Part shown: positions 9,578 to 45,300 of the stretch, one piece after another
Position numbering within the stretch: position 1 is the stretch's first letter
Layout of the letters: every line of letters starts with the position of its first letter
Source of the DNA: Nereocystis luetkeana
Lineage: Eukaryota > Sar > Phaeophyceae > Laminariales > Laminariaceae
Assembly (NCBI GenBank): GCA_031213475.1
Contig: JARUPZ010000035.1
Coordinates: 3,586,953 to 3,650,952 of the forward strand
Length of the DNA stretch: 64,000 bases
Reading direction: 5' to 3'
The notes under the pieces: model-generated
The model's database searches: none
What the model saw: only the letters and a program-made list of their open reading frames with translations
Told to the model about the DNA's origin: nothing
Position numbers and translations under genes: made by a program

Positions 9578-12500
9578 CTCTGCGCGCGCTGGTCACAGAC
9601 GGTAGGGTTGACAACACCAAACCTCTAATCATTGTTTCGGTCGCTACTCCGGAGTCTCAAAAATGGTTGAACAACCAATGGGATTGTGCACCAGGCTTAC
9701 TGCTGCAGCTCAACCCCTTTCGGGGGTTGAAACCGTAACGACCAAACCATTCGGGGGTTGAAAACATAACGACCAAACCAATGGTTGGTAACCTTTCGGT
9801 GTCATCATCAACCATCTGTGTAGGAGCAGTGTGAGCGGACGGCCGTACGGGGGTACGGGTAGGATCATGTGTTGCTTGCGCCCGTGCCGTACGTACGAGT
9901 CCTTTGCACTGGAAATCGGACACCATGTCACAGAACATCACCCCCCAATGAAGCAGTGGCCGGTGCTGTAGTAAGCCAGGTTTTCTCCCTTCGGGAGTTG
10001 AAAAGTTTATCAAAAGCCGGTTGTTGAGTTACTACTGTCGTAAATAGGTGTGACATGGTATGATGAGGTATGGTTTGCACCAGGTGAAGCGTTACTACGA
10101 GCGAGGACCGTCGATAAATTTACGATAATTTTATGAGCTGCGGACGCCTATTTACCGTAGAGTACCGCAGAAATTTACGAGAAATTTATGATCTGCGGAC
10201 CCCTGTATACCGTAGCCACGCGTCGTGTATGTCTGTCTGTGTGTTTGCGTCTTCGCGTATGTGTCTGTGGGCGTGCCGGCGTGCATGCATCTATCCGTGT
10301 GTCTGTAGATTGTTTCTTGTGTGTGTATGTGTATTCTTGTGCGCATCTGTGTGTGTTTTGTGTTCTGCGTATGCTGGCGCGGAACGCCGGCGGAAGACGA
10401 CGGTGGTGGCGTTCTCGGCGGTGGCGGTGACGATGGCGATGGCGGTGGCGGTGGTGGCGTGGCGGTGGGTAGCAGTGGCGGTGGGTGGCTTCGACCGGAT
10501 GTGGGTGTCTTGGATGGCGCCCGCGGCGCTGTGGATTTTTTCCACCAGTCATGGCACTCCGAAACATACCGTACCAGATCAAGCAACGTAAATATTACCC
10601 TGGCCTTACTCGTATCATCCACAATTCTAGAGATTTTTCTTGGTGCTTTTGGATGTCGAGGCACACCAAAAACATACCAGGTACCAGATTAGGCACCCAA
10701 AAAAATACAAAGTATACCCTACATACGACGATTCTAGCAGTGTTTTTTTTTTTTTTTGTCAAATCACGGAAAGGCGCCAACCCAACCCAATCCAACCCTA
10801 TATTTGACCAAAACCTACCCCCAACCCTATCCCAGGCTGAGCTAACACCCGAGTGTGACGTCGCCTCGCGTTTTGGATTCTCCTCACAAAAGATGCAGAC
10901 ACCTCAAAAATCGTTTTACAAATATACCAAGTACCTGGTGTATTTTTTCAGTAGTTTTAACTATCATTTTTTCCGGACGGAAAATTCCCGGCAGTTTTTT
11001 TACTCTCCTCTTATTTGCCATGAAGGCCACCAATGAATCGTGGTGCCGCACTCTGAGGGGAAAATTCTCGCTCGATGCGAAAAGCGGCGCAATCGCCGTT
11101 TTCTGGCCCGTTTTGGCTAGGTCGGGTCATGTTTCGGCTTTGGGTCAGAGGTAATGTAGTAAGGATCGGTTGGAGTGGGTCTACACCCGCGCTTTCATCC
11201 CGCTCGGGAATGCTCTCTAGTTTTGATCGCAAAGAAAAAATGTCAGCAGGGAATAGCCGGATCCATGGAAGATACGTCCGGACAAGTTATGCATCTACGT
11301 CTATCATATACCAGTTTTTTTTGTTTTTTTTTTGTGTGTTTTGTTCACATCCCGTTTATCAACTTCGCCCGTCTTTTCTCTCTCCTTCCTATTGCGGGGG
11401 ACCATAGTAAATAGGACCAAATATTGTCAGTAAAAATAGTGAAACATACAGTTTTTTGTGTTACCGTAGGTCCTATTTAATCCCCCCCCCCCTCCCCACT
11501 ACGGCTCATGCCTTCATTGTTATCGCGAGAAGACTGCAGCCCTTTCCTCCCTCGTCGACGCGCGTCGGATCCTACGGACTCTCATTCTGGTGCGTTTATC
11601 TGATCCAAAAGTACGGATATTTGTTTCGCGGTGTACTTACTGGTTGGTGGGTCGGCGGAACCCTCACCCAGTGCCGTTCGCGGAATTTGAAAGTAACCCT
11701 GGGTGGGAATTGCGTCGATATATATTGTACCGCAAACCCCATGAAACGGGGTTGTTGTTGGTACGTCCCCTCCTTTTTAGTATTATAGTTATATGCCCCC
11801 GTTCCAGTTTTTTTGGGGGGTTGCCATCCGCGAGTAACGTGCGCGTATTGGTCCGATTCTAAGGCGAACGAACGACCGTATTTCGCGCTGCGTTTTATAC
11901 GAAAAATATCAAAAAGACGCCACGCCAGCCTTATAGCTGCTGCTGTGAGATCGAAAAAATCGTCCGAATTCGTGTTAGTTGCATGGAGATATTTTACTTT
12001 TTATTAGTTATCAGGACCTAAATTTGGCGTACAATCATAGGGGGATACATGGTGTTTGCGTCCGTCGGGAGTTCTGAGTACTACCAGTCTGACCCGATAT
12101 ATAGGAACAGTTGGACATGTACATATCCAATCTCAACCGTCCTTATATTTTGGGTCAGGATGGTATGCATCACGTATTACTATGTATTACCATGTACGAC
12201 TGTGTACTATTAATATTACGGTGGGCCATAGTAAAATAGGACCAAATGTTGGTAAAAAAATCGAAATATATATACCATGTAGGTTTTCGTCTGTACCGTA
12301 GGTCCTATTCAATATGGTCCCCCGTAATACCATGTTTTACTATGCCCTCCCGCAATGGCTGCTGTACCGTGACATGCAGCGCCCTTGCCCCTCAACGCTA
12401 CCAAAAAGCTGGTTGGTTGTTGCTGCTGTCTTGCACGGGTTAGATTCTATCTGTTTTTTTCTTCGGACGAAGGTGATGGTGAAAACAGCCCCCCTCTCCC

Positions 12501-15500
12501 GCCTTCTCCTCGCCTCCGCCACCGCCTCCGCCGCCACCGCCTCCGCCGCCCCCCCCCCCCCCTCCCCCCCCCCCCCCTCCCCTCCCTTCCTCCTACGAAA
12601 ACTATCGGGGACAACGTTTATCCAGTCGAGTTCGCTGCCCCTACCAACGCCGCCGCCGTCGCCGCCGCCGCCGCCACCGCCGGTTGGCTCAATGCATCGT
12701 CCCCGAGGGTCCGCTCACCTTGGAAGTCGAAATCATGGCACTGCTGGTACTCGTTGCCTCCATTTTCCTAAGGTATAGTTGTTGTTGTTGCTGTTGTTGT
12801 TTCTCACATTAGATCTCAAAATCAAGGGAGTCCGTTGTCACACAAAAGGTGCTGGATCCCCTAGGAATATCCGAAAAACCATGAAAAACAAAATGAAAAA
12901 TCGGCGAAGACGAGGAAGGCGCACGCACACTTGAAATTCAATCACTGTGCAAAAGCTGGACTGACATGGCCGCGGGTATCCACTCAACTGCGGCATAGAG
13001 TTCCCCCCCCGTTCCCACACCTAATCAACTCGTGGCTGCTGGCTTACAGCGGTTGTTGTCCGGAGTGCTGTCTGCGCCGTACGAAATGCACGGTAGTCGT
13101 GAACACAGAGAGGAACGCGCCCTGCATCTGGGGTGCTGTCAGAGTGTCGACTCGCCGACATGTAGAGAAAAAAAGAGCAATTAAATATAGAACCATGTAC
13201 GTATCAACGATCGCCACGCCTTCCCGGACTGTCTGACAAAAGGTGCAGCACGGCTAAAATGGAGCGTCCCTGAGAATTGAGGGGGGTCGTTCCCCATGAA
13301 GAGTACACAACTCGCTACCACCACAAAAGCTAGTGACGTAAATAACAGATGCTACTGCCCCGGAAAATATCCGGAAAGAAACGATGGTTGCTGCTCTCGT
13401 GATGGTGCACGCGCCGGTCGTGGGTCTCCGTGTGCCGTCCTTCTGTCGTTCTCCATTGGCCGCTCCATCGCCTAAGCCCACTCGGCCCGCTCCTTCGCAC
13501 GTGCTCTCGGTGCCCCTCCCTTCCAGTCGGTTCCCCCCTTCTCCCCCGTCCCATAGACGAAGTGCTCCTCGCAGCTTGCGATTCTGATTTCAAAAACAAA
13601 AAATATATATCTCGCAGGGTGAGGTCAATCCGTCTCTTCTCCGCTCGTTGACTTTCAGTCTCCCTGCTCCGTCGGCGTCCAATCCAGCCTCCTGCCGGCG
13701 CAGTTGGACTGCTGTGCAGTAAGTTTGGTTCATGGTGGCGCCCGCCTCCGCGCACGGAGATCCCGATCGTGCGTTTGCTGCTTAGCCGCTGCTTGCCTCA
13801 GAAGGACACGCGAATCGTAGGTGTCCGTGCCTGACGCACCACGTACGTCCCACCTTTGTTGTTACGCCCAAGCCTCGCGGCCACACGCAGCAACGAGAAC
13901 GTGTATCACTCCTTGAGGGTGAGTCCGACCTTACACCCGCCAGAAAGACCTACCCCACTCACCATAAACCTGATAGGGCATGCCTCGCAGCATGCCTTGC
14001 CGAGGCAGCGAGGGGAGCGAAGTGTAGGGGTACTGGGTGTACTGGTGTACCCGACATCGACCGATGTGCCGTCTAAAACGAGCTCAGATGAAAAAAAATC
14101 AAGAAAACGCCGCGACAAAAGTTGTGAAACCCGATATTGTGTTTTCAGGATTCGTTTCAATTCGTTCCGAATTCGCTCTTTCGTTTTCGTTTTCTGGTGT
14201 TCCCAATTTTCAATTTTCGACCCTATTTCGTACCAGGTACTATTCATCGAGAACAATATTTTTAGTTCGTTTCCCACTCTACATTTCGATTCATTTTCAA
14301 TTTTTACATACCTGCTAGTACGGGGGGCCATAGTTGACAGGGCCAAATATTGTTAGTAAAAATGGTTAAGCATATAGGTTTTTATCTATACCATAGGTCC
14401 TGTTAACTATGGCCCCCCGTAATAGTATTTGTTCTGTTCCCTTTTTTGTCTTTCTTGGTTTGATTCATTTTTTGAAGTTTGGTTCGATTTCGTTTTCTCA
14501 GAATTGTCGGCCGGCCACCCCTCAATGTGGAATCGATTGTTAACTCGGCCCTGCCTGGCATGGTGGCGACAGTGCCGGCCGCCGCAGCACCGCTCCCCGA
14601 CGAGCGCTGTGTACGAAACACCGGCCTGCATGCGGTCCCGCCAGCAGGTCGCAGCCTCCGTTGCCTTGCAGAATTCGGAGATGGTCGTGGTGTGGTGTGG
14701 TGTGGTGTGGTGTGGTGTGGTTTGGTGTGGTGTGGTGTGGTGTGGTGTGGTGTGGTGTGGTGTGGTGTAGTGGTGCGGTGTGGTGCGGTACGTTGTGTTG
14801 GGCTGCGCGGTGTTGCGCGTCCTGGGCTGGGCTGGCCTGCGCCGTGCGGTGCGGTGCGGTGCGGTGCGATGCGACCGCGCTTGGGGTTGGGTTCTGACTT
14901 GGGCTTGATTGAGCTCGGCTTTGGGCTTGGGCTTGGGCTGCTGCGCGCCGGCGCCGGTGCCGCGCCGCGCGCCAGTCCTCATAACGCTAGCCCTCATTCC
15001 TCATCACAACGGCCCTTTTCTGTCTGACGTCTTCCTGGTGTTAGATAACGAAGACGAGGCTGGACCCGGCGTGGCAGACGGTCGCGGAGCGTGCTCAGGG
15101 GCTTGTCGCGGATTGGGCGGAGGCCAGCGAGAGGATGGTGAGTGAAATGAGCCCACGAGGACGCCGGTCCGTTTTGCGGATAACGCCTCTAGCATTTTTT
15201 CGAGAACCTGGGAATTGCGAAATGTTGCCGGCAAACGTTCTCTATAGCATTTTCCTTCTGCGAATAATGCCTCTTGCATTTGCTCGAAAACATGGGAACT
15301 GTTTTTTTTGCCGGTAAGCGCTCTCTACAAATTACTTGATATCCCGGGAATTGCTAGATGTTCCCAGAAAACCTGGGAATTGCTAAATGTTACCAAGGCA
15401 CCGGTTAACATGTACCGACACGACGAGATGAAAGCGAGAGATAGTCGCGGAGGGCGCTGAGAGAGGCCAGCGAGAGGGCGTTGAGAGAACCCGATCACGC

Positions 15501-20208: not shown

Positions 20209-22335
20209 TTACGGGGGGCCATAGTTAACAGGACCAAATAATGTCAGTAAAAATGGTTAAACATATAGTTTTTTTTTGTATACCTTAGGTCCTGTTAACT
20301 ATGGTCCCCCGTAATAGTATAGTGTTGATATAAATAGCCCCCCTTTTCCTGCCTGTATGTGGGCGAGGTTTACGGTCCGAAACCAAGAGCAAACACCCAA
20401 CGAAAATGCTGCTATTTTGCCTGTTGCGGCGATATCGTCAACGCTTCACCCCCTTTAGGACCGCACCCACGTTTTAGGGCACGAAACTATGTGGAATTTG
20501 TGTGGGATAATGTTTGCAGCTATTACGCGACTAATCCCCGTTTCCGCCCCCTCCCTCCGTCCCTCCCTCCCTCCCTCCCCCCCCCTCCTTCCCTCCCTGC
20601 TTCTGCCGCGCTCAGCCCAAACAGACCCGTTCGCGGTGTTCGCGAGCGCGCCAGGCGCCGCCGCGCCCAACGCGCCGGGGCCGAGCGCCCAAGCCCCCCT
20701 AGGCCCCGCGCCGCGCCCTTTCGCCGGGTCTTTCGCTGGCGGCGTGCCCGAGAAACAGTCGGCCTTTATCTCGGTGACCTCGTCTAACGCTCCGAGAAGA
20801 AGACCGACTCAGCAGCCCCCTTCGGATTTCGCGTCCTGGATGTCGTCCGTCAGGGAGACGGGTCCGAGCGCGGGGGCTCCTTTCGCTCCGTCCCCCCCCT
20901 CCGGGTTCGGTGCGAACGGTCTTGGCGGCGGAGGCGGGGGGCTGGGAGGTATCGGGCGGCAGAAGTTGTTCGTCGTGAGCGAGTCGGCTTCGTTTCATTC
21001 GAGCAACGGCGGCGCCGATAGTAGTTTTGGGGGTGGTGGTAGCAGCTTTGGCGGTAGTGCTTTTGGCGGTAGCGGTTTTGGCGGTGGGGGAGGAGGGGGA
21101 GGGGGAGGTGGGGGGGGAGGAAACTCGGCAACTTCTAGCACCAACGTAGGACCCGTTTCCATTGCCGAAGGAAGTGGGGCGGCAGGAGCGGGGGGGGGCT
21201 CTAACCCGTTCGGGTTGGTGCAGCCGATCGCTACCGCGTCGGGCGGGTCAGCTTCGCAGGATTGGCAAGCAGCGGGTGGTGCCGCGCCGAGGGGAGAGGC
21301 GTCGGACCCGTTCTCCGTTGGCTCTTCCACCGCCGCAGCTCGTGGCGGTGGCGGCGTAGGTGTGGGCGCTGGAGGGCACGGGCCGGGGCTCCTGGGGGGA
21401 GGAGCGGCGGGGGCGGGGGGCGTGGGGGGTACCGACTGGTCCTTGGGCACACCATCATCGGGGGCGGGCTTCCGACCTCCATCAGGGTCAGGAAGTGGAT
21501 CGGTTACCGACCTGTTGCCGAGTCAGGGTCAGCAGCAGCAGCAGCAGCAGTTTTTGTCGACAGCGTCGTCTACGTCGTCCGTGATGCCGTCATTTTCCGG
21601 TCCCGGCCAGGGCCGGCGACAGCCGCAGGGTCAAGCGCAAGCGCAAGTGCAGCCGCAGGGTCAAGCGCAGGCATTGTTGCAGTCTCAACAAGGGCAGCAG
21701 CAGCAGCAACTGCATTCGAATCAGCAGCGGCAGCAGCAGCAGCACCACCACCAACGATCACCACCTCAGCGGCAGCAGCAGCAGCAGCAGCAGCAAAGCT
21801 TGGACCCGTTCGCCGGCGCCATCGTACCGGCCGGTGGTGATACCACCGGTGGTGGCTTCACAAATGCGACTCCATTCGGACCAGACAACGTCGACCCGTT
21901 CGCGCAGCCGATATCAGCGCCAGCCCCGATAACGGGCTCCTCCGTCCTGACGGCAGCTTCTGACGGCTTTGGGTCCGGCGCGTCGCGAAATGCGACGGGG
22001 TCGGGGGACGCTGGGGTCTTCTCTCAGGCGTCGCTGGTCCAGCCGGGCGGTGCGGGGGCCGGTAGTAATCCGTTTGATGACCCTTCTTTGGCCGTGTTTA
22101 ATGCGCAGCCGCAGCAGCAGCGGCAGCAGCAGGTTCCTCAGCAACAAGGCCTTCAGCAGCGGCAGGCTCCTCAGCAGCGAGGTCTTCACCAAACACAGCA
22201 GCATCCTCAGCAACAGGGGCAGATGTTCCCCCAACAGCAGCCGCCTCAGCAGCAGCAGCAGCAGCCGCCTCAGCAGCAGCAGCAGCAGCAGCAGCCGCGA
22301 CCGCGATCTCGACAACATCAGCAGCAACAGCCACC

Positions 22336-33900: not shown

Positions 33901-35469
33901 CACGTATCCGACGCAAAGCTGCGAGTATGTTCGCCTCGTGCCTCTTCTGTTTGTCATACGTCGTATGTTCATTTGTCGGGTGGGCGTTCTCGCCGCACGC
34001 ATAATGCGTAACAGCAGCAAGAAGCAACAGTCTCAGCACTAAAAGTTGGTGACCGTCATCGTCGAGGCGCATGGCCGTTCGCCTTACTTGCTCTCTTTCC
34101 CAGCCATCTCCTAACTTGCCAGCGAATATTCGAATTGTATTGAGCAGCCACCGCATCCATCAGTACTTTGCAATAGATATATACAAAATGCTTCACGGCG
34201 GCTGAGAGCGAAGCATTCGCTGGAAGAGTCGAAACGCATATCTTGAATTGAGTCTGGGCTCGGGAGACCTGTGCAGAAAGGGAGTTAGAGCGCGCTTTTT
34301 CGGCCGCTCTTTTCGAGGGGCGTGCTCGCCGGCCTCCGGCGGGTCTTTTCCCGTGCGAGCTGTCTCGACATCGCGCTCCCCCGCCGAGCGCAGCGACTAC
34401 TCAAGAAGTTACCGGATCTTGCTGAGAAATCGGAGACACGGACGATCTACTTTGAAAAATCCTTCGCTTTGTCGGAGAGACGGCGAGACATGACGAGCAT
34501 CAATTAGTTTTCTCTTTCTCCTGTTTTAGGTGCGACTCGGTTCAATTAGATCGTAGTATGAGTACTGCTGTTGTATACTCCTACATGCAGTCCGTCGTGA
34601 GATATCATTTAAACGTACCTGTCTGTCCGTAAATATAAGGAGTCAGCCGCGTCGTGATGGGATGCGAGGAGTACAGCAGCACGAACGAATGATTCAACGA
34701 AAAAAACGGCAAATGGTACCTGTCAGGTACCAGTCAGTGTTTATTTTATGCTCGTTCCCGGTCTCCAGTTTGTCCGTAAATACAAAGAGAGTATGAGTAT
34801 TAAACGCGACATTCTTTACTACTGCGGACGCTGATAATATAAATATTGGCCGTGTCTGTAGCAGTAACGCGTCGCCCATTATTTGTAGCAGTCTTCTTAT
34901 ACTCGTACTGCGAATGCTTGCAGCACTAAAGTAAATACTCTCAACACTCCGAGGATACTCCGAGCATGGCCTACTGGACTGAACATCTGGTGTGCACACT
35001 GCTGGGGGCTGACCAACCCGTGTGTTGTTGTCGTGTGAGTTCGGCACAAAAAAACTGAGTGTCAAGTCCTGCCGACGACGCCACTTGTCAAGTTTTAGCA
35101 GGCGGGACACTTTGTATCCCCGGACAGGTATGCCTATTAAGCCGGCACTCGTTGGTACTCGCGTGTGTTGTTTGCGTAGAGGTAGAAAAAGAGCCGCTTT
35201 ATTCCTTTCGTGCACGGTGGAGACTGAGGCCAAGCTCTCTCTGGAAAACTCCTGGTCTTCCACCTAAGATGCACCTTCCAAGTACTACAAATACGATCCC
35301 AGTGCCTGAACCCAGGTAATTACCGAGCTTTCAATCTCATTCAAGGGAGTGTATCATAATATGATACTGAGGACTGAGGAATGAGACTGACAAATTTACA
35401 CCACCAAAAGGAGCATGACAAATAAATGCAACTGAGCATTGGAGATCAGAAAATAGTATTTGTAGTAGC

Positions 35470-35501
<32 letters not shown>

Positions 35502-38500
35502 CAGTAGTAGTAGTGGTAGTTTTGTAGTACCTGAGATTAACGGAAGATAAACAATCTGACGCATGCGGCTGGTAAATGAACAGGGTACTTCGTACGCGTG
35601 ATAAACGAGAGCTGAGAGCTGAGACCAATAGACAAAGGCTGAGAACCATGAGAGGACTAAAATTGGTACCAGGTATGTCCAATTCTTGAGCTTCACTATT
35701 TATTATTCTGTCGTCCTGAAAGACACTATTACGGGGAACCATATTTAATGGGACCAAATATTGTTAGTAAAAATCGTTAAATATATAGGTTTTTATATAT
35801 AGCACAGGTCCTATTAACTATGGTCCCCCGTAATATTACGGGGGGCCATAGTTAATAGTACCAAATAGTGTTAGTAAAAATAGCGGAATATACAGGTTTT
35901 TGTCTGTATCGTAGGCCCCATTTAATCAACCCCCCGTAATATATTTTAATTCGTATTGCCTTCATCCTGCAATACTTGACATTTCCTTCATGTATCCTTT
36001 GTCTAAAACACTTGCTATCAATAGTTGGCATCGCCCCGGTGGTCCAGTACATAGCCTCCAATACTATACTGAGGTTGAGGTCTCGAGTTCGAGCTCCGTA
36101 AATTCGTACCGGAACAACGTTATTTATTGGATTCTTTAGTACGTGTTGACAGTCCCGTATCAGGGATTTGGAACAACGCCCCTTCTACTTGCGGGTCTCA
36201 ACATATGCTCAATGATCTCTCTCAAACCTTCAACTCGCCAACTTCCCACTCACTCCCAAACGTTATGATACTGCCTTGAAAGAGGCTGAAAGCCAGGTAA
36301 TTACCTGGGTTCTGGCACTGGGATCGTATTTGTAGTTCTTTGAAGGCGTTTCTTAGGTGGAAAATCAAGGGGTTGGATTTTCCAGAGAGGCACGAGCTTG
36401 GTCTCAGTCTCCATCGTGCACGAAAGGAATAAAGCTGTTCTTCTTCTACCTCTAAGCAAACAGCACACGTCAGTACCAACAAGTACCGACTTCATAGGTG
36501 ACTTGTCCAGGGATACAAAGGGTCTCGATCTCTGATCTTAGAATGTGGCATCTTCGGTGGCTTCGTCGCCTTGCCGAAGAGAGGTGTGGGAGAAGGTTTT
36601 GAGGAGCCGCATCTTCGACTCGTCGTGTTCTAGCTTGTGGAAAGGGGGTTTCCAATGATTTTCCCGCAATTCCGCATATACTTCTCATCAGAGTGGGCTA
36701 GTGCTATGATACTGCCTTGAATGAGGTTAAAATCCCCGTAATTACCTGGGTTCAGGCACTAGAATCGTATTTGTAGTACATGGAGGCGAATCTTAGGTGG
36801 AAAACCAGGGGGTTGGATTTTCCACAGAGAGCTTTGTCTCAGTCTCCACCGTGCACGAAAGGAATAAAGCTGCTCTTCTTCTATCTCTAAGCTAACAACA
36901 CACGTGAGTACCAACGAGTACCGACTTAATAAGCAGACCTGTCCAGGGATACAAAGGGTCCCGACCTCTGATCTTAACACAAACCCTGCTCGCACCCACC
37001 GGCGAGTAGAGTGCTGTACTACAGTAGATCATCTGCTTCCTTTCTCTCTTAAACCCTTCCCAGCCTCTGTGTTCCCAATTCAACCAACTGCACTATCATG
37101 GGGTTCATAGCCCTCTGCCCCATCCCTTCTTCAATCCAGCCTACTATCAGTACCTCTCCACAAACCCCAGGTTTCCCTTTGTTCAATCTTCCACGTTTTT
37201 ACGGGGGGTGCTGGTGATGAACCATCCCCGAATAACAAATAATGTATTTACCATTATTTTGTACAACGACGGCTTTTTTGGGGGTTATCATGCAGAGCCT
37301 AAAACCCGTTTTCTTTATGTTTTTGTGTTTTTTCGGTCTCCACCACCAACCAATGACGCTGACTCTGAAGTTAACCAAACACTACATCGAAAATCCGTTT
37401 ATTTTATACTTCTTTTTTTGTCTCTACGACCAATGGCGCCTTAACGCTGTAGGCGCTAAAGTTAGCAAAACACTGTTTTTGGGGGCGAAGAGGTGTTGAT
37501 AGACCATCACCGCATCATCAAACCAATTACTGACTACGTTAATTTATTGCGGTCTCCATCACCAACAACGCCTGATACCGCCGAAGGCACTAAAGTTAAG
37601 TTATGGCCTTCTTCCTGCACCACTTGGCATTGACATGATACTGTTCGTAGTTGCGAATGGTGTTTTCATATTGACGAGCCGAAGTAATCACAAATCGGCA
37701 CTTGGGTATATTTTCCTATATATCCGGAGCATGGGTGCCGATAGGCACCCGTGCGGAGCCCTTGTGCCTAAGGAAAATCATTCCAAATATACCCAGGACG
37801 ACGACGACAGAAAGGAGGATTTTCTAGGCTCGTGAATCCTACTGGTATGGAAATGTAGGGACTTGTAAGTGCGGAGCGACTACAGAAACGAAGTACAATA
37901 TCTCAATGGAACCATTCTGAAGATAGGCAGGACAACGACGACTAACTTAGTAACTTTTTTTTCCGATATCGTAGTCCTAGTGGTATAATAGTTGCTCCTA
38001 AAGAAAACGAAGTTCTCTCAGCGATTGATTACGTATGGGTACTGTAAATATGCCGGTATCACTTTTTTTTTTTCTTCGTATAATAATCACTTTCACTTTC
38101 CAGCTTATAACTCGTAGGAGGTTTTTTGCCCCCAGCGGTCTTCTTCTGGACAAGCCGTGGTCACAGGTGTCGTCCCTTCTCCCCCCCGGCACGTGCCTTC
38201 CGTTTTTGTCGCGCATAGGGTTCACTGCACCTGCATAATTACCGGCATGAACGTATGTATGTGTAACGGCTGTGCCGTCTTTCTCTGTGCGTAAATATGG
38301 TGTAACAAACACCGGAGCGACGTACGAGTCTCCGTTAGCAAAGTACTGTTGTTACGGACCGAAATCGTCTTTGAAAAATCGTCCTGTTGGTGGTACAGTA
38401 GCACCACCCTCAGGGAAGCCACCGATCTACAGTGTATCCTACAAGAGGAATATAGAACACACCCGCGCCGTCGACGTACCGATATCACGTATAGTTTGCA

Positions 38501-39360: not shown

Positions 39361-42300
39361 ATGGCCGCCTCTGCTGGTGCACCGCACCCGCCAATGTCCC
39401 CGGGAGAAGCCTCGGTTCACTCATCCCCCTCGCTCAAAAACCTCGGCTCGAAAGTCGTCAAGGGGCTCGGGCATATTCAGGGGAAAAGAGCAGGATCACC
39501 GCCATCAGGCAAAGACCGGCCAGATCACCAGCATGCTCACGACGCCGGAAGCATGGCGGGTGGGGTCGGCTTCGGGGGGAGCATGCTGGGGGAGGTATTG
39601 GCCTCGTACTCCATGAGCACGCTGCCGCCGTCTAAGAGGCACTCCATAAGTGCTACGTCCGCGCATTTCGAGGAGCTCGCGGCCGAAGCTGGCATTGACG
39701 TGGAAGCCGAGGAAATAAACATCGAGGATTTGAGGATGTACCGCATGGATGAGGACTGTGGGTATACGCAGGACGACGACGACAGCGATGATGGCGACGG
39801 CGACAACAGCAACAACGCGGGCGCGGGCGACAACAGGCACCACCTGCACGACGACGCGAACGCCGGGAACCAGAAGCTAGCCCACAAGGAGCGCAGCATT
39901 CTGCAGATGGTGGATGTGCTGAGCGATCGCCTAACCAGTCTCAACGCCGTCGTCATCAACCGCTACAACGGCTGCAAGTCGGACCTGGACGAAGCCACAG
40001 AGTTCCGCTCATCTCGCACCAAGAAGATGGCCATTGCAGCGGAGGGGGACTGGAGCAGCAGCACCCCGCGCAGGGGGGTCGACAAGTCGAAGCGAGGCGG
40101 TTTGTTTAGTCAGGGGGGGGAAGGCGGGGATGGTGGCGACGCCGTGGGGCCGTCGCGCATGACTTTCAGGAACGCTCCGCAGACCGACGCGGGACGAAAG
40201 CTAGCGCATCAGTTCGAGCAGGAGTACGGGGCAAAGCAGGCCAGTGCTACACACGCCACTTCTCACACTCGTACACACCATGCTCCTCTAGATTCTAAGT
40301 GACTTGGCTTGCCCCAACGTAAGGGGGCGACCCGCCGATGGGATACGTAGCAAGTTTACGCGGGCGCGTCATGTTTCGTATTGCACTCTCGGCTGGACCA
40401 TCATGCAGATACGTGCTACAGAGTACGTACAACAATACGAGTACGTACGAGTAGCGAGGATCCTTATAAAAGGGTACGGATTATGGATGGTACACGGCAC
40501 AGTAGATCGAATACCTCCGGATACCATACTCCATTCGTATGGAGTACCGCAGATCTATAGATAATACCAAGTATGTTGCAGCAGCAATGTTACAGAGGTA
40601 ACTTTGCCATTTTTAGTTCGTAATTTTCTGACTGTAACAATCGTGTCTTGTTAACCTACTGTAGGCTTCAAGTGCGACACCCAAGTTCAACAAAACTTCC
40701 TCGACCAAGCTGAAGCGAGTCGACCACTACAAGAAGAGCGAGTCTCGGAAACACGAGCGCATCCACTTCGAGCGCAAGCTGCAGTCAAACCTCGACCAGT
40801 ACGTCACCCGCGCCGTAACCGAGCTCGTGTATCGAACCCCGGAGGACGCTGCGGACGTCGGATCAGGACCTGAGAACCACGGGAATTCTCAAGACGACAC
40901 CGCCCCTCCTGCTGATGTCGGGCTACGGGAGGGCGCCCACACCCCTGGTGGCACCTCTGAGTTGATTGCGCGAGAGCGCTTTCCCATTCCGATGGAGGTA
41001 AGGACGTCACTCTTCACTATATAAGGCGTGTGTCGGCGAGATGGCGAGTGTGTACCATACAGACATTTGATGTTGAGTTTGCGAGGATGCTACAGAGTAT
41101 TATCTTCCTACTATACTACTCGTACAGTACTACAACAGTATCTGGTATATATACAGTACTACTGTACTGCTGTACTATTACAGTACTACAGTACCTGGTA
41201 TACTACAGCTCGCACTACTGCACTGCTGCAGTATCGGAGTACTGCTGCTACTACTGCCGAGCCACGAACTTTGTTTTTGAATCGCCACTTTTACTTCCCA
41301 GCTCCACTCGTAGGAGGTGTTACATCCAGCGCCGTGGTCACAGGTGTCTCTGTTCGTTTATAAAGGATAGACCACTGAGCTACTCAGTCAGCGCTGACTG
41401 AGTAGCTCAGTGGTCTATCCTTTATGAACGAACAAAAGAAGTATTTTTGGGCTCGATACGGCCTCCCGCCGATAACATCCTCCGGGGTTGATCAAGCCCC
41501 TAATCAGCGCCTGGTTTTTCCTTCATATGGTCCCCCTCCCTAGTCGTGAGTTATTTTACTCAAGTGGTTCACTCCACTTTCGACTCTCTGGTCGAATGTT
41601 CTTTTATCGTGGTTCTCTCCACCTGATTTCCCTTTTTCTACCCACGGCAGAAAAAGCGGAAATACGAAGTCTGGCGGGACTCGAACCCCGGACTTCTTTT
41701 GTTCGTTTATAAAGGATAGACCACTGAGCTACTCAAACATGGCACTCATCGAACAATGCCCATACCCCCTTATTCGCCGTCCAAGGGCAGATTCAACAAG
41801 AACCTACGATGAGACTTAAAAGGGGTCGCAGCAAGGGATTTCGTCAAAATATCCGCGTGCTGCTCTTCCGAAGCTACGAACTGAATGTCGATCTTCTTAG
41901 CACGAAGTAGCTCTCTGACAAAATGAAAACGCACGTCAATATGCTTACTCCGCGCAGAACTAAGAGGGTTCTCAGCCAACGCTATGGCCCCCTGGTTATC
42001 CTCAAAAACCCGAACACATGATCCGCTTAGCTCTGGACAAATAAACGACAACACCGCGCCCGTAAACAAAGCTTCCTTCACCCCTTCACCCAGGGCGACA
42101 TATTCTGCTTCTGCTGTCGACAACGTAACACACCTCTGCGTGCTACTTGCCCAACTGACGGCCGCACCCCCTAGGGTAATTACCGTCCCCGATACCGAGC
42201 GCCTATCGTTCGACTTACCGGCATAATCAGCATCACTATACGCTGTCAAATCCAATCCCGAACCCCGCACTAAAGTCAATCCCATAAACCTGGTCCCATG

Positions 42301-45300
42301 GAGGTAAGCCATTATCTTCAAAACTGCCTTCCAGTGCCTCTCCGTTGGGTTGTGGGAGTGGCGCGCCACAGCACGCACAGCGTTCGAGATGTCCGGCCTC
42401 GTCATGGTCGACAGCCACATCAAGCTGCCCACAGCCTCCCTGTACGGCCAGTCTCCTCCAATTTCGCCCTCCTCTCTTGGACCTAGTTCCACACCGGGGG
42501 TCGCGGGGATGTCAGAGGATGAGTTAACACCAAAACGATTCAGCATGCTCTCTATAAACGCCTTCTGCGTAATCTCCAATGTTCCCAACTCCCAGTCGCG
42601 TTTGAAAGCACAACCAGTATACCAAGTCAGTTCGCCGAGGTTATTTGTGGGGAATTTCGTAACTAGCGCGGCATGGAAATCTCTGCATGTCTCGTCCGAT
42701 CCTGCGATCACGATGTCATCTACATGGACGGCCATGATCAGTTCTACCTTGCCGTCCACAACCATGCGAAAAACACACGGGTCAGACCTACACTGCTCCA
42801 TACCGTACTCTACCACGGTTTCCACCAATAATCCGGCCCACTGCCGTCCGCTCTTCTTTAGACCATACAGTGATCTGTTCAAGCGGACGATCCTTCCTGA
42901 CATGTCACCACACCCACCGGGTAGTTTCATGTATATCTCGGCGTCGAGTTTCGCGCGAACAAAAGCTTGCGCGACGTCTAGATGAAAAATCTTCAGACCA
43001 TATTCGTTGGCAACAGTCGCCAGAATTTTAACTGACGCTGACGAAGGAGTTGGTGCAAACGTTTGAAAATAATCTACGTCCTGCACCTGGCTAAAACCCT
43101 TAGCCACAAGTCTGGCCTTTGTCTTTACTATCATACCATCCTTATCCGTCTTGTAGGTGAACACCCACTTCGCGCCTACAGGTTTCCGCCCTCGTGGCGG
43201 TGTCGCGGCTTCATATGTACCGGTCGTTTTGTGACCGTCCAACTCAATTTGCATGGCCTCGTGCCACGCCGCTTTATATCGGGAACGCTCTACATCTGCT
43301 ACGGACTGCGGGGGCGGTTCTACGTCTTCCGGGAAACGACTCGGCATGCACACGCTCAACTCCCCTTTATTCTCCACGGCAGGTCCTCCGGCCATCAAGG
43401 CCACTGCGTCCTCCGTCGTCCATGACGTACGATTCAGGATACTCCCAGGCGTCGTCCACCACTCGTACGCTGCCGCAAGCAGCGCGTCTGCGGCTCCTCT
43501 GTCCATCTTTAGCTGGTTCACAGCAGGTCCACCCTCCAGGCGTTGGCTCTGACCTCGGGTCCGGCCCTGTACTGTTAGAGGGAGCCGTCCCCAGCTGCTG
43601 AGATCGTGTGCTGGCCTGCCCGACAGGATCGCGGGAGGGCCCTCACCGCTTCCTTGGCCGGTGTCGGAGACTGATGCTGCACCCGGGTCGCTTTCGGCCC
43701 TCCCTGGCGGGACCGAGGAGGCGTCCACGGCGCCCCCTTGAGACGAACCCATCGTCTCGGCTGTTTCGGCCCTCCCCCTCGGGGCCGAGGAGGCGTCCAT
43801 GGCGCCCCCTTGAGACGAACCCATCGTCTCTGGTGTTTCGTCGCCGGCCTCGCCGGCGACAGGTACCTGATGTATGCGCTCCTGCATAAACGCGTCCAGG
43901 TCAAACCCCCACGTCACGTCGAGGTCGTTCAAGTGAGCCAGACCGTCGTCCAGCTCATTCACCACCCCCCCACCACCTCGATCCGACGTGCTCACGTCGT
44001 CCGCCTCGGACCCCCCCTTTTCCGTAGACAGGGAGTCATTCGCCTGGGCAGGTACAGGTGGTGCAGGCGACACGCATTGCCAGGTGACATTTCGCGTGAT
44101 TAGCACAGTGCGTTGCCTCGTCAATACTCGTACTGAGTCTCGGGGGTAGTTGGGTGCAGGGCCAAGGTAAAAGCACTCTTGTGCTTTCACCTGTGACTTG
44201 TTTTCCCTCTTCACCTTGCAGTAGCCAGGCTTGAGGAAAGGTAGTAATACTACCGGGGGGGGGCTACCATGCCACATCTCATGCGGCGACTTGCTCTCAG
44301 GGTTAGCTGTGGTTGCTGTGCGGTTCAAGGCGTCACACGCCCTCCAGGTGTTTGCTCTGACACCGGGTCCAGTGGTCTATCCTTTATAAACGAACAAAAG
44401 AAGTACCTTTGGGCTCGATACGACCTCCCGCCGATAACATCCTCCGGGGTTGATCAAGCCCCTAATCAGCGCCTGGTTTTTCCTTCCTATAGTCCCCCTC
44501 CCTAGTCGTGAGTTATTTTACTCAAGTGGTTCACTCCACTTCCGACTCTCTAGTCGAGTGTTCTTTTATCGTGGTTCTCTCCACCTGATTTCCCTTTTTC
44601 TACCCACGGCAGAAAAAGCGGAAATACGACGTCTGGCGGGACTCGAACCCCGGACTTCTTTTGTTCGTTTATAAAGGATAGACCACTAAGCTACTCAGTC
44701 AGCGCTGACTGAGTAGCTCAGTGGTCTGTCCTTTATAAACGATCAGTCTCCCCGTTTAAGCTTTGAAAATACGAGGTTGATCGTGCACACTCGTACAGTA
44801 GTTGGCAAGCGTTCGCCTCGAGAACCGATAACGTCAGGCTGTGTGTACTGTAGCACAAGCGCATCCACCGATTCAATAATGAAAGCAAAGGCCCTTGCTC
44901 ACCACAATGCTCCGGGGTACCTCTACCAAACAAGCTTCGTGGTCCATCCGCGATTGAGCTGGTTTGCTCGCCATGTGATCTCCCCCGTCACGCCCTTCTC
45001 CTTTCCTTTTGGGGCATACCTACCATGGACCGATTTGTGCACCCCTGTTTTCACACCGCTCTAATCATGTTCTTACCAGCTGAACGAGATGAACCCTAAG
45101 CTTCTGCTGTCCTACGCGTGTGAGCGGACCGTTCTCCCCGGTGGAACGCGTATGTTCAAGCACTTCGCGACGTCGACCGAATCCCAGCACCTCTTCGTCT
45201 ACGTCTTCTGGTTTATCCACTGCAAGTTCTTCCAGGTAACTCACAAGGGTTGACATGCAAACATGCGATTGGCAGAACAACTACCCGTTTTCAACTGCAG

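Follow-up and report, generated by a model that had tools for sequence, protein, structure and literature searches.

A palindrome-ended repeat family with tRNA-like boxes in Nereocystis luetkeana, probably mobilised by a single Copia family

The element in the window

The sequence considered here (the window) is a stretch of 64,000 nucleotides from Nereocystis luetkeana (contig JARUPZ010000035.1, positions 3,586,953 to 3,650,952), in which a fragment of a Copia retrotransposon is bounded on both sides by copies of a repeat that carries boxes like those of transfer RNA (tRNA) genes and has hairpins at its outer edges. The repeat is built of two modules, a palindrome, P, and a non-coding body, M, and the layout of the locus is P-M-[Copia 2.6 kb]-M-P (Table 1). 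The direct repeats are 97% identical across 300 nt, while the outer inverted arms, 93 bp in length, are 96% complementary. Directly beyond both of the terminal stubs stands the pentanucleotide GTCTC, and it is because this target-site duplication lies outside the stubs that they are taken as the ends of the element; at fixed borders, a 5-bp match has a chance of 1 in 1024.

An earlier reading made from the letters alone (the sequence-only reading) had given the extent as 41350..44747, which is roughly right, but it overlooked the duplication, and the element proper occupies 41351-44745, with the borders TGTTCG...CGATCA. What it said of hairpin borders, i.e. of GTCAGCGCTGAC plus an inverted stub outside each repeat, has held up (arms 93-98% complementary), as has its description of inverted copies of about 45 bp at the repeat ends: these measure 44 bp at the start and end of the left repeat (337 bp as first cut) and 34 bp in the right repeat, the inner end of which is cut short. 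The 12-bp GTCAGCGCTGAC was considered as a target duplication and rejected, being the centre of P, and a microRNA at P was likewise set aside, as the Rfam matches do not reach gathering scores and reflect nothing but the shape of the hairpin. For the left repeat, the minus-strand RNA (41351-41755) is predicted to fold far better than shuffled sequences (z -11.2), which follows from its complementary ends.

The Copia fragment was identified with Pfam as an RVT_2 reverse transcriptase (PF07727, E 1.3e-49), the sole family above its cut-off in the 12 window frames searched, and it stops about 300 nt before the 3' long terminal repeat (LTR) proper to this Copia. Its reading frame also contains a 72-bp tandem duplication of 90% identity (window 43692-43835).

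Table 1. Features of the element, and places of a dispersed repeat, in the window
Feature	Positions	Strand	Remarks
Target-site duplication GTCTC, left	41346..41350		identical to 44746-44750
P, 84-bp terminal palindrome TGTTCG...GTCAGCGCTGAC...CGAACA, left	41351..41434		recurs as unit ends at other loci; sub-parts A' 41351-41386, S 41387-41398, A 41399-41434
M, left copy, 265-bp non-coding body	41435..41699	-	B box 41687-41677; TTTTT 41655-41651, minus strand
Inner half-palindrome A'	41700..41735	-	A box 41731-41721, minus strand; joins Copia at common TGAGT
Piece, read as captured, of a Copia of ~6 kb	41736..44369	-	end of integrase part, then reverse transcriptase, then end of pol plus 20 nt
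868-amino-acid stop-to-stop reading frame of the Copia fragment	41770..44376	-	
Half-palindrome A, truncated to bases 10-36	44370..44396		
M, right copy	44397..44661	-	B box 44649-44639, minus strand
P, right terminal palindrome, ends CGATCA	44662..44745		A box 44693-44683, minus strand
Target-site duplication GTCTC, right	44746..44750		
Dispersed repeat, six places	1547-1599, 12277-12329, 14372-14424, 20264-20316, 35783-35835, 35890-35942		

The P-M-P family across the genome

The repeat is by no means confined to the window. In the 465-Mb assembly (1987 contigs), the 349-bp repeat gave at least 369 matching pieces, palindrome arms being counted separately and the best 40 of 672 candidates being scored. 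A 29-base half-palindrome gave 523 + 531 = 1,054 matches with no more than 3 mismatches (each intact P counting twice), and a 30-base A-M junction including the B box gave 104 + 121 = 225; the backwards controls gave 0 in both cases. Fifty P-M loci (numbered here with the prefix L, L001 being the window) were sampled and mapped. Thirty were the best matches to the 349-bp repeat, window included, a choice that biases the sample toward the window's sequence; the other 20 came from the exact-match list on two contigs, C1 and C2, minus loci already covered, C2:6674578-6677523 and C2:19190888. Since L016 and L018 are one place, there are 49 distinct sampled places.

The mapping showed a modular family, in which P (84 bp, A'-GTCAGCGCTGAC-A) alternates with M (265 bp); P-M-P, which is non-coding and 433 bp long, forms the basic unit. 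Independent units of this kind without any Copia were indeed found when, as had been proposed at the outset, the genome was searched for the repeat alone. Other forms include solo P (L064, L075), direct multimers (L016), inverted multimers (L008, L010, L023) and jumbled arrangements (L013, L074), and there are P-M-P-M-P arrays in which neighbouring units hold one P in common.

Flanking duplications, another of the checks first proposed, proved informative. From 55 chains, 26 units with TGTTCG and CGAACA at their two ends were taken, 29 being left out as cut off, truncated or chimeric at an end (including both window halves), and 20 of the 26 have exact 5-bp duplications; on random pairing of left and right flanks (20,000 draws) the fraction was 0.0. 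Two of the six exceptions (L005, L066) show a duplication beyond a few additional bases, and two more (L009, L012) have one at the far end of a chimera. In one case (L016) the target region can be seen without the unit, in a related repeat at L019.

Likeness among copies says less about how they are made. M copies within one locus are slightly more alike (0.968, 14 pairs) than those of different loci (0.953). Arm-to-arm likeness within P is 0.923, vs 0.913 on shuffled pairing (90 P copies), which gives no clear sign of hairpin copying, and arms of differing type are mixed inside single P copies. Some repeat arrays and Copia copies on smaller contigs (C1118, C394, C1:11884480-11885516, and also L039/L040) have the same match lengths and scores as those of larger contigs, and are perhaps haplotype duplicates in the assembly.

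The Copia family and its own terminal repeats

The interior of the Copia (query 41756-44369) recurs at 94-100% identity over the whole query or its 3' part (best 40 of 455 candidates, window included). Thirty copies were fetched, and in 25 of them both P and M are absent within about 1.5 kb of the matched interior, the others being the window, L036, L046, L050 and L053. The copies have an LTR of their own, 244 bp long (TGTTCGTTTGG...CTACGAACA): the 3' end ...CTACGAACA is present in 26 of the 30 and has one base changed in L043, while it was not picked up by that test in L031 (the window again), L035 or L058. The 5' LTR was found in L061 (244 bp) and L062, none being shown in L063, where it was also sought; the duplication AGGGA flanks the copy L034/L062. 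An earlier candidate for the LTR start, TGTTCGATGAG at 41755, was rejected, lying 300 nt upstream of the true start. A 30-base word of the LTR has 179 + 197 matches in the genome, several of them in pairs about 5.84 kb apart. On one contig (C9:5296211-5875301) such matches recur every ~113.6 kb (5420743, 5534399, 5648130, 5761699, 5875272; first step 124.5 kb), a spacing that suggests a large tandem duplication.

The repeat is thus a separate entity, independent of the LTRs of Copia. The two do share their extreme ends, the first 9 bases of P (TGTTCGTTT) being the first 9 of the Copia LTR and the last 7 (ACGAACA) being its last 7. Other matches between P-M and Copia are short (for M, the longest exact match is 10 nt, with one of 14 in 15).

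Chimeras of P-M and Copia

At 10 of the 49 places P-M is fused to this Copia, at a distance of 19 nt or less (L001, i.e. the window, L006, L007, L009, L011, L012, L027, L065, L067 and L068). Taking the Copia share of the genome as roughly 0.5%, at least 10 fusions in 50 by chance would have a probability of 7e-14, a rough guide given that it uses 50 loci and an estimated share and that the 30 best matches are biased. Apart from Copia, comparison of the flanks showed no sequence repeatedly abutting the units, other matches being read as dispersed repeats, which are present away from the units too.

Four of the chimeras each lie within one target duplication. Besides the window, with its single GTCTC, these are L012 (TACGT), where 173 bp of the Copia 5' region stands between two units; L007 (TCACA), with the Copia LTR end on one side and P on the other; and L009+L036, which are one place (TACAC), with P on one side and the Copia 3' LTR end on the other. 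The last two therefore have mixed ends, one from each family. As to the sequence-only suggestion that a SINE-like repeat (short interspersed nuclear element) had come to flank a Copia fragment, the repeat is indeed separate, but the locus is a single integrated chimera in one duplication rather than the product of two landings.

Some joints lie at short matches, TGAGT in the window and AGTCAG (6 nt) in L046, and L046 and L068 are internal mosaics without insertion marks. Further joints occur among the Copia-fetched loci L046, L050 and L053, although the joint in L053 may stem from a Copia insertion into a P. A Copia copy at L033 has 13 P-like bases (TGTTCGTTTTATA) ahead of its 5' LTR and inside its duplication AGGTT (L061:661-690 with L033). 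Plain insertions also exist: L066 and L072 are simple insertions into Copia copies, with 5 and 5-6 Copia bases repeated at the borders (interior-query 1264-1268 and 2177-2182).

Two loci of more complex structure may be recorded separately. At L050:205-1500 the order is Copia 3' LTR, 441 bp from the 5' interior of Copia, and P-M pieces, which looks as if tandem Copia complementary DNA had switched to P-M. At L030:1049-1452, two P-M chains are separated by 404 bp with 96% likeness to L017, and GGCTA stands at three borders; by eye the 404 bp read like the reverse transcriptase of a LINE (long interspersed nuclear element), so that a double insertion or a captured target may be involved.

The tRNA-like boxes

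Both repeats were claimed in the sequence-only reading to carry, on the minus strand, perfect A and B boxes about 33 bases apart. Boxes are present in both copies, the A box being TAGCTCAGTGG at 41731-41721 on the left and TAGCTTAGTGG at 44693-44683 on the right, where it fits the consensus but is not letter-perfect; the B box, GGTTCGAGTCC, lies 33 nt past each A box (41687-41677 and 44649-44639). The A-box consensus alone is frequent, with 69 matches in the window, while these two are the only strict B boxes on either strand of the 64 kb. When the 337-bp repeat was shuffled 20,000 times by dinucleotides, an A box with a strict B box at tRNA-like spacing never arose, and with a loose B box it arose 52 times. 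Furthermore, a 19-mer of M that spans the B box, GGTTCGAGTCCCGCCAGAC, is present in nine viral contigs (several of them near-identical), in seven of which it falls within tRNA-Lys genes called by ARAGORN and is their exact 3' part; in the other two no tRNA was called. Because of this match the B box and its adjoining bases look derived from the 3' part of a tRNA. An exact 27-mer of P had 0 matches in viral contigs.

A tRNA detector, which had been proposed as a check on the repeat, gave no support: neither ARAGORN nor Rfam recognised a tRNA in the window element, so that a functional tRNA was rejected and the tRNA-likeness is limited to the promoter boxes and a piece of T arm. Nor did ARAGORN find any tRNA gene in the 50 P-M loci (0), so there is no sign of tRNA-gene targeting.

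Across the 50 copies the B box is intact in 41 (rank 122 in conservation among 255 eleven-base windows), and the A box in 31 in the forward direction and 42 in its mirror copy (some rows lacking an upstream P); selection on the boxes is thus not apparent, their conservation being no higher than that of the rest of M. It had been argued that plain TG...CA ends, 5-bp duplications and unconserved boxes across the genome would make the boxes coincidental. The copies do show such ends and duplications, with boxes no better conserved than M, but the shuffles and the tRNA-Lys 19-mer speak the other way, and coincidence appears very unlikely as the origin of the pair. Relative to Copia sense the boxes run in the same direction in the window and in the opposite one in L009, L011 and L027, and because the direction varies in this way they are not a Copia promoter.

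Interpretation

The reading that we favour is that P-M-P is probably a non-autonomous mobile family that relies on one Copia family for reverse transcriptase and integrase, and that the locus in the window is best read as a template-switch chimera of the two. Integration by the Copia integrase, which would join the ends of P-M-P to the target, appears well supported by the ends, the duplications and the mixed-end chimeras; for the reverse-transcription step, we infer it from the mosaics, and it would often switch templates at short matches and palindromes, yielding multimers, inversions and chimeras. One could envisage, though this is a guess, that RNA of P-M is packaged with that of Copia; as a further guess, the apparently tRNA-derived boxes may drive transcription of P-M by RNA polymerase III (Pol III).

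Several observations weigh against such a scheme. No packaging signal is visible in M, because its matches to Copia are only short. Neither a primer-binding site nor a polypurine tract was recognised on checking the ends of M: it starts AAAGAAGT on both strands and ends ACTTCTTT, there is no purine run before either P, and TGG is absent from the first 13 bases at either end, although the primer might come from an inner part of a tRNA. The P copies on either side of an M resemble each other (0.919, 29 pairs) no more than do P copies of different loci (0.915), and LTR-style copying would thus seem unsupported, although a star-like burst would leave the same pattern. In 47 of the 50 copies TTTTT follows 21 nt past the B box; it would be an early Pol III stop, and argues against a full-length Pol III transcript. 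For two of the 26 units (L006, L074) no duplication was found, and six of the fused places show no enclosing duplication, either because the far end is outside the fetched DNA (L006, L011, L027, L065, L067) or because there is none at P (L068); in L065 and L067, moreover, the joint is at the Copia LTR end, so that a Copia may simply have inserted into a P-M copy there.

The palindromic ends raise the question of how priming might occur without the usual sites. A more far-reaching proposal, which we regard as rather unlikely, is that P-M-P is a satellite needing neither primer-binding site nor polypurine tract: a tRNA mimic would enter the Copia particle, its tRNA-like part binding reverse transcriptase, and the terminal hairpin would self-prime both strands, the palindromic ends being regenerated and accepted by the Copia integrase, with inverted dimers and Copia chimeras as by-products of hairpin priming. 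It is also possible, if short of an even prospect, that the family is simply an ordinary terminal-repeat retrotransposon in miniature (TRIM), with P as a palindromic 84-bp LTR, M as interior, solo P as solo LTR, multimers as the tandem arrays known for TRIMs and a primer site that uses some part of a tRNA not recognised here. Such a view partly coincides with the reading favoured above, which leaves priming open, and it accounts readily for the TG...CA ends, the 5-bp duplications, the solo P copies and the P-M-P-M-P arrays, such arrays being described for Cassandra (PMC7215508); in the part of PMC10886601 used here, most fungal Helenus and some Copia are described with anticodon-loop primer sites. 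What it does not lead one to expect is the sequence at the ends of M, with a purine tract before neither P and no TGG, or inverted multimers within one duplication (L008, L010, L023), which LTR recombination should not produce.

Palindromes are unstable, and the chimeras and multimers might accordingly be ascribed to DNA recombination at a recombination-prone P, by way of extrachromosomal circles or gene conversion, rather than to template switching. Mixed arm types within single P copies and arrays that share a P between units both fit, but we consider this unlikely as the source, since single 5-bp duplications enclose four chimeras and several multimers, and since mosaic joints lie within Copia interiors (at a 6-nt match in L046, and in L068). 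The 42-bp terminal inverted repeats (A' plus half of S), 5-bp duplications and lack of coding capacity would also suit a miniature inverted-repeat transposable element (MITE) moved by a DNA transposase, its resemblance to Copia being chance; integrase-type DNA transposons do exist, such as Ginger, and TDD-4/5 have 5-bp duplications (PMC2836005, as far as drawn on here). That a Copia LTR end and a P end occur inside one duplication (L007, L009+L036), and that 10 of 49 places are fused to one single Copia family, makes it very improbable. Finally, the idea that the repeats are an unusual LTR family of this Copia carrying its Pol III promoter, an option of the sequence-only reading that would fit the way the repeats flank the Copia piece, with the boxes on its sense strand, is practically excluded by the different 244-bp LTR, by the 25 of 30 Copia copies without P or M nearby, and by the reversed boxes of L009, L011 and L027.

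Other observations in the window

A dispersed repeat with a CCCCCCGTAATA-like 3' part occurs six times in the window (Table 1), its copies standing at 60-83% of the reference copy, and around 35.1-37.0 kb (window 35103-36963) there are several inverted arms of 74-146 bp, 84-90% complementary.

Comparison with known systems

tRNA-derived SINEs have a Pol III head, a LINE-type tail, duplications of variable length and no terminal repeats, and the terminal palindromes and 5-bp duplications rule out such an element here. In the main text of a transposon survey of Ectocarpus (PMC12477816), the terms 'tRNA', 'LARD' and 'palindrom' have 0 occurrences, and its 'SINE' passage concerns a LINE-dependent element; among the records listed in a literature search, neither titles nor the openings of abstracts pointed to a palindrome-ended, tRNA-bearing Copia satellite. 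Retrozymes (PMC4918200, in the part cited) are similarly non-autonomous, LTR-type and without coding capacity, but this identity was rejected, as the window has no hammerhead at Rfam gathering scores and the element and one further copy have none up to E 10.

The nearest kind is Helenus (TRIMp3; Kojima 2024, PMC10886601, of which parts are used here), and P-M-P may work like it. Both are short non-coding retroelements with tRNA-like A and B boxes and 5-bp duplications. The Helenus range of 311-1263 bp accommodates the basic unit of 433 bp, which multimers can exceed, and Helenus duplications of 5 bp in fungi and plants and 4 bp in animals may be compared with the exact 5 bp in 20 of 26 units. 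Fungal Helenus is proposed as probably moved by Copia, as P-M-P probably is; the hosts given are fungi, animals and Selaginella. The coding insert of 2.6 kb in the window element is the captured Copia piece. The terminal repeat of P-M-P is an 84-bp palindrome with the A box only, the B box being in the body M (whether the LTR holds both boxes depends on what is given that name: it does if the term covers P-M-P as a whole, but with P alone as LTR the B box falls outside), there is no recognised primer-binding site or polypurine tract, and there are inverted multimers and Copia chimeras. It is on account of the missing primer site and polypurine tract, and of the B box outside the terminal palindrome, that P-M-P is not filed under Helenus.

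In Triticeae, complexes put down to abnormal template switching (Sabot and Schulman 2007, PMC1950507, as far as consulted) likewise contain fused elements in one 5-bp duplication, but there it is LTR elements that are fused, whereas in the present case Copia is joined to a non-coding repeat unrelated to it, and one genome carries many apparent template-switch products. TRIM-like elements that carry Pol III boxes have been described before; in the portion of PMC10886601 drawn on, their helpers are inferred from primer-site or internal sequence similarity, with none indicated for Cassandra. That 5S-bearing TRIM (PMC7215508, in part) has in common with P-M-P a Pol III-type promoter, arrays alternating terminal repeat and interior, and a strongly self-complementary transcript (predicted in the case of P-M RNA); it differs in bearing 5S rather than tRNA sequence and in that both a primer-binding site and a polypurine tract accompany its LTRs. 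For Cassandra the helper is described as unknown, whereas the P-M-P chimeras point to one: their mixed ends within single duplications are direct evidence, at the level of sequence, that links a satellite bearing tRNA sequence to one Copia family.

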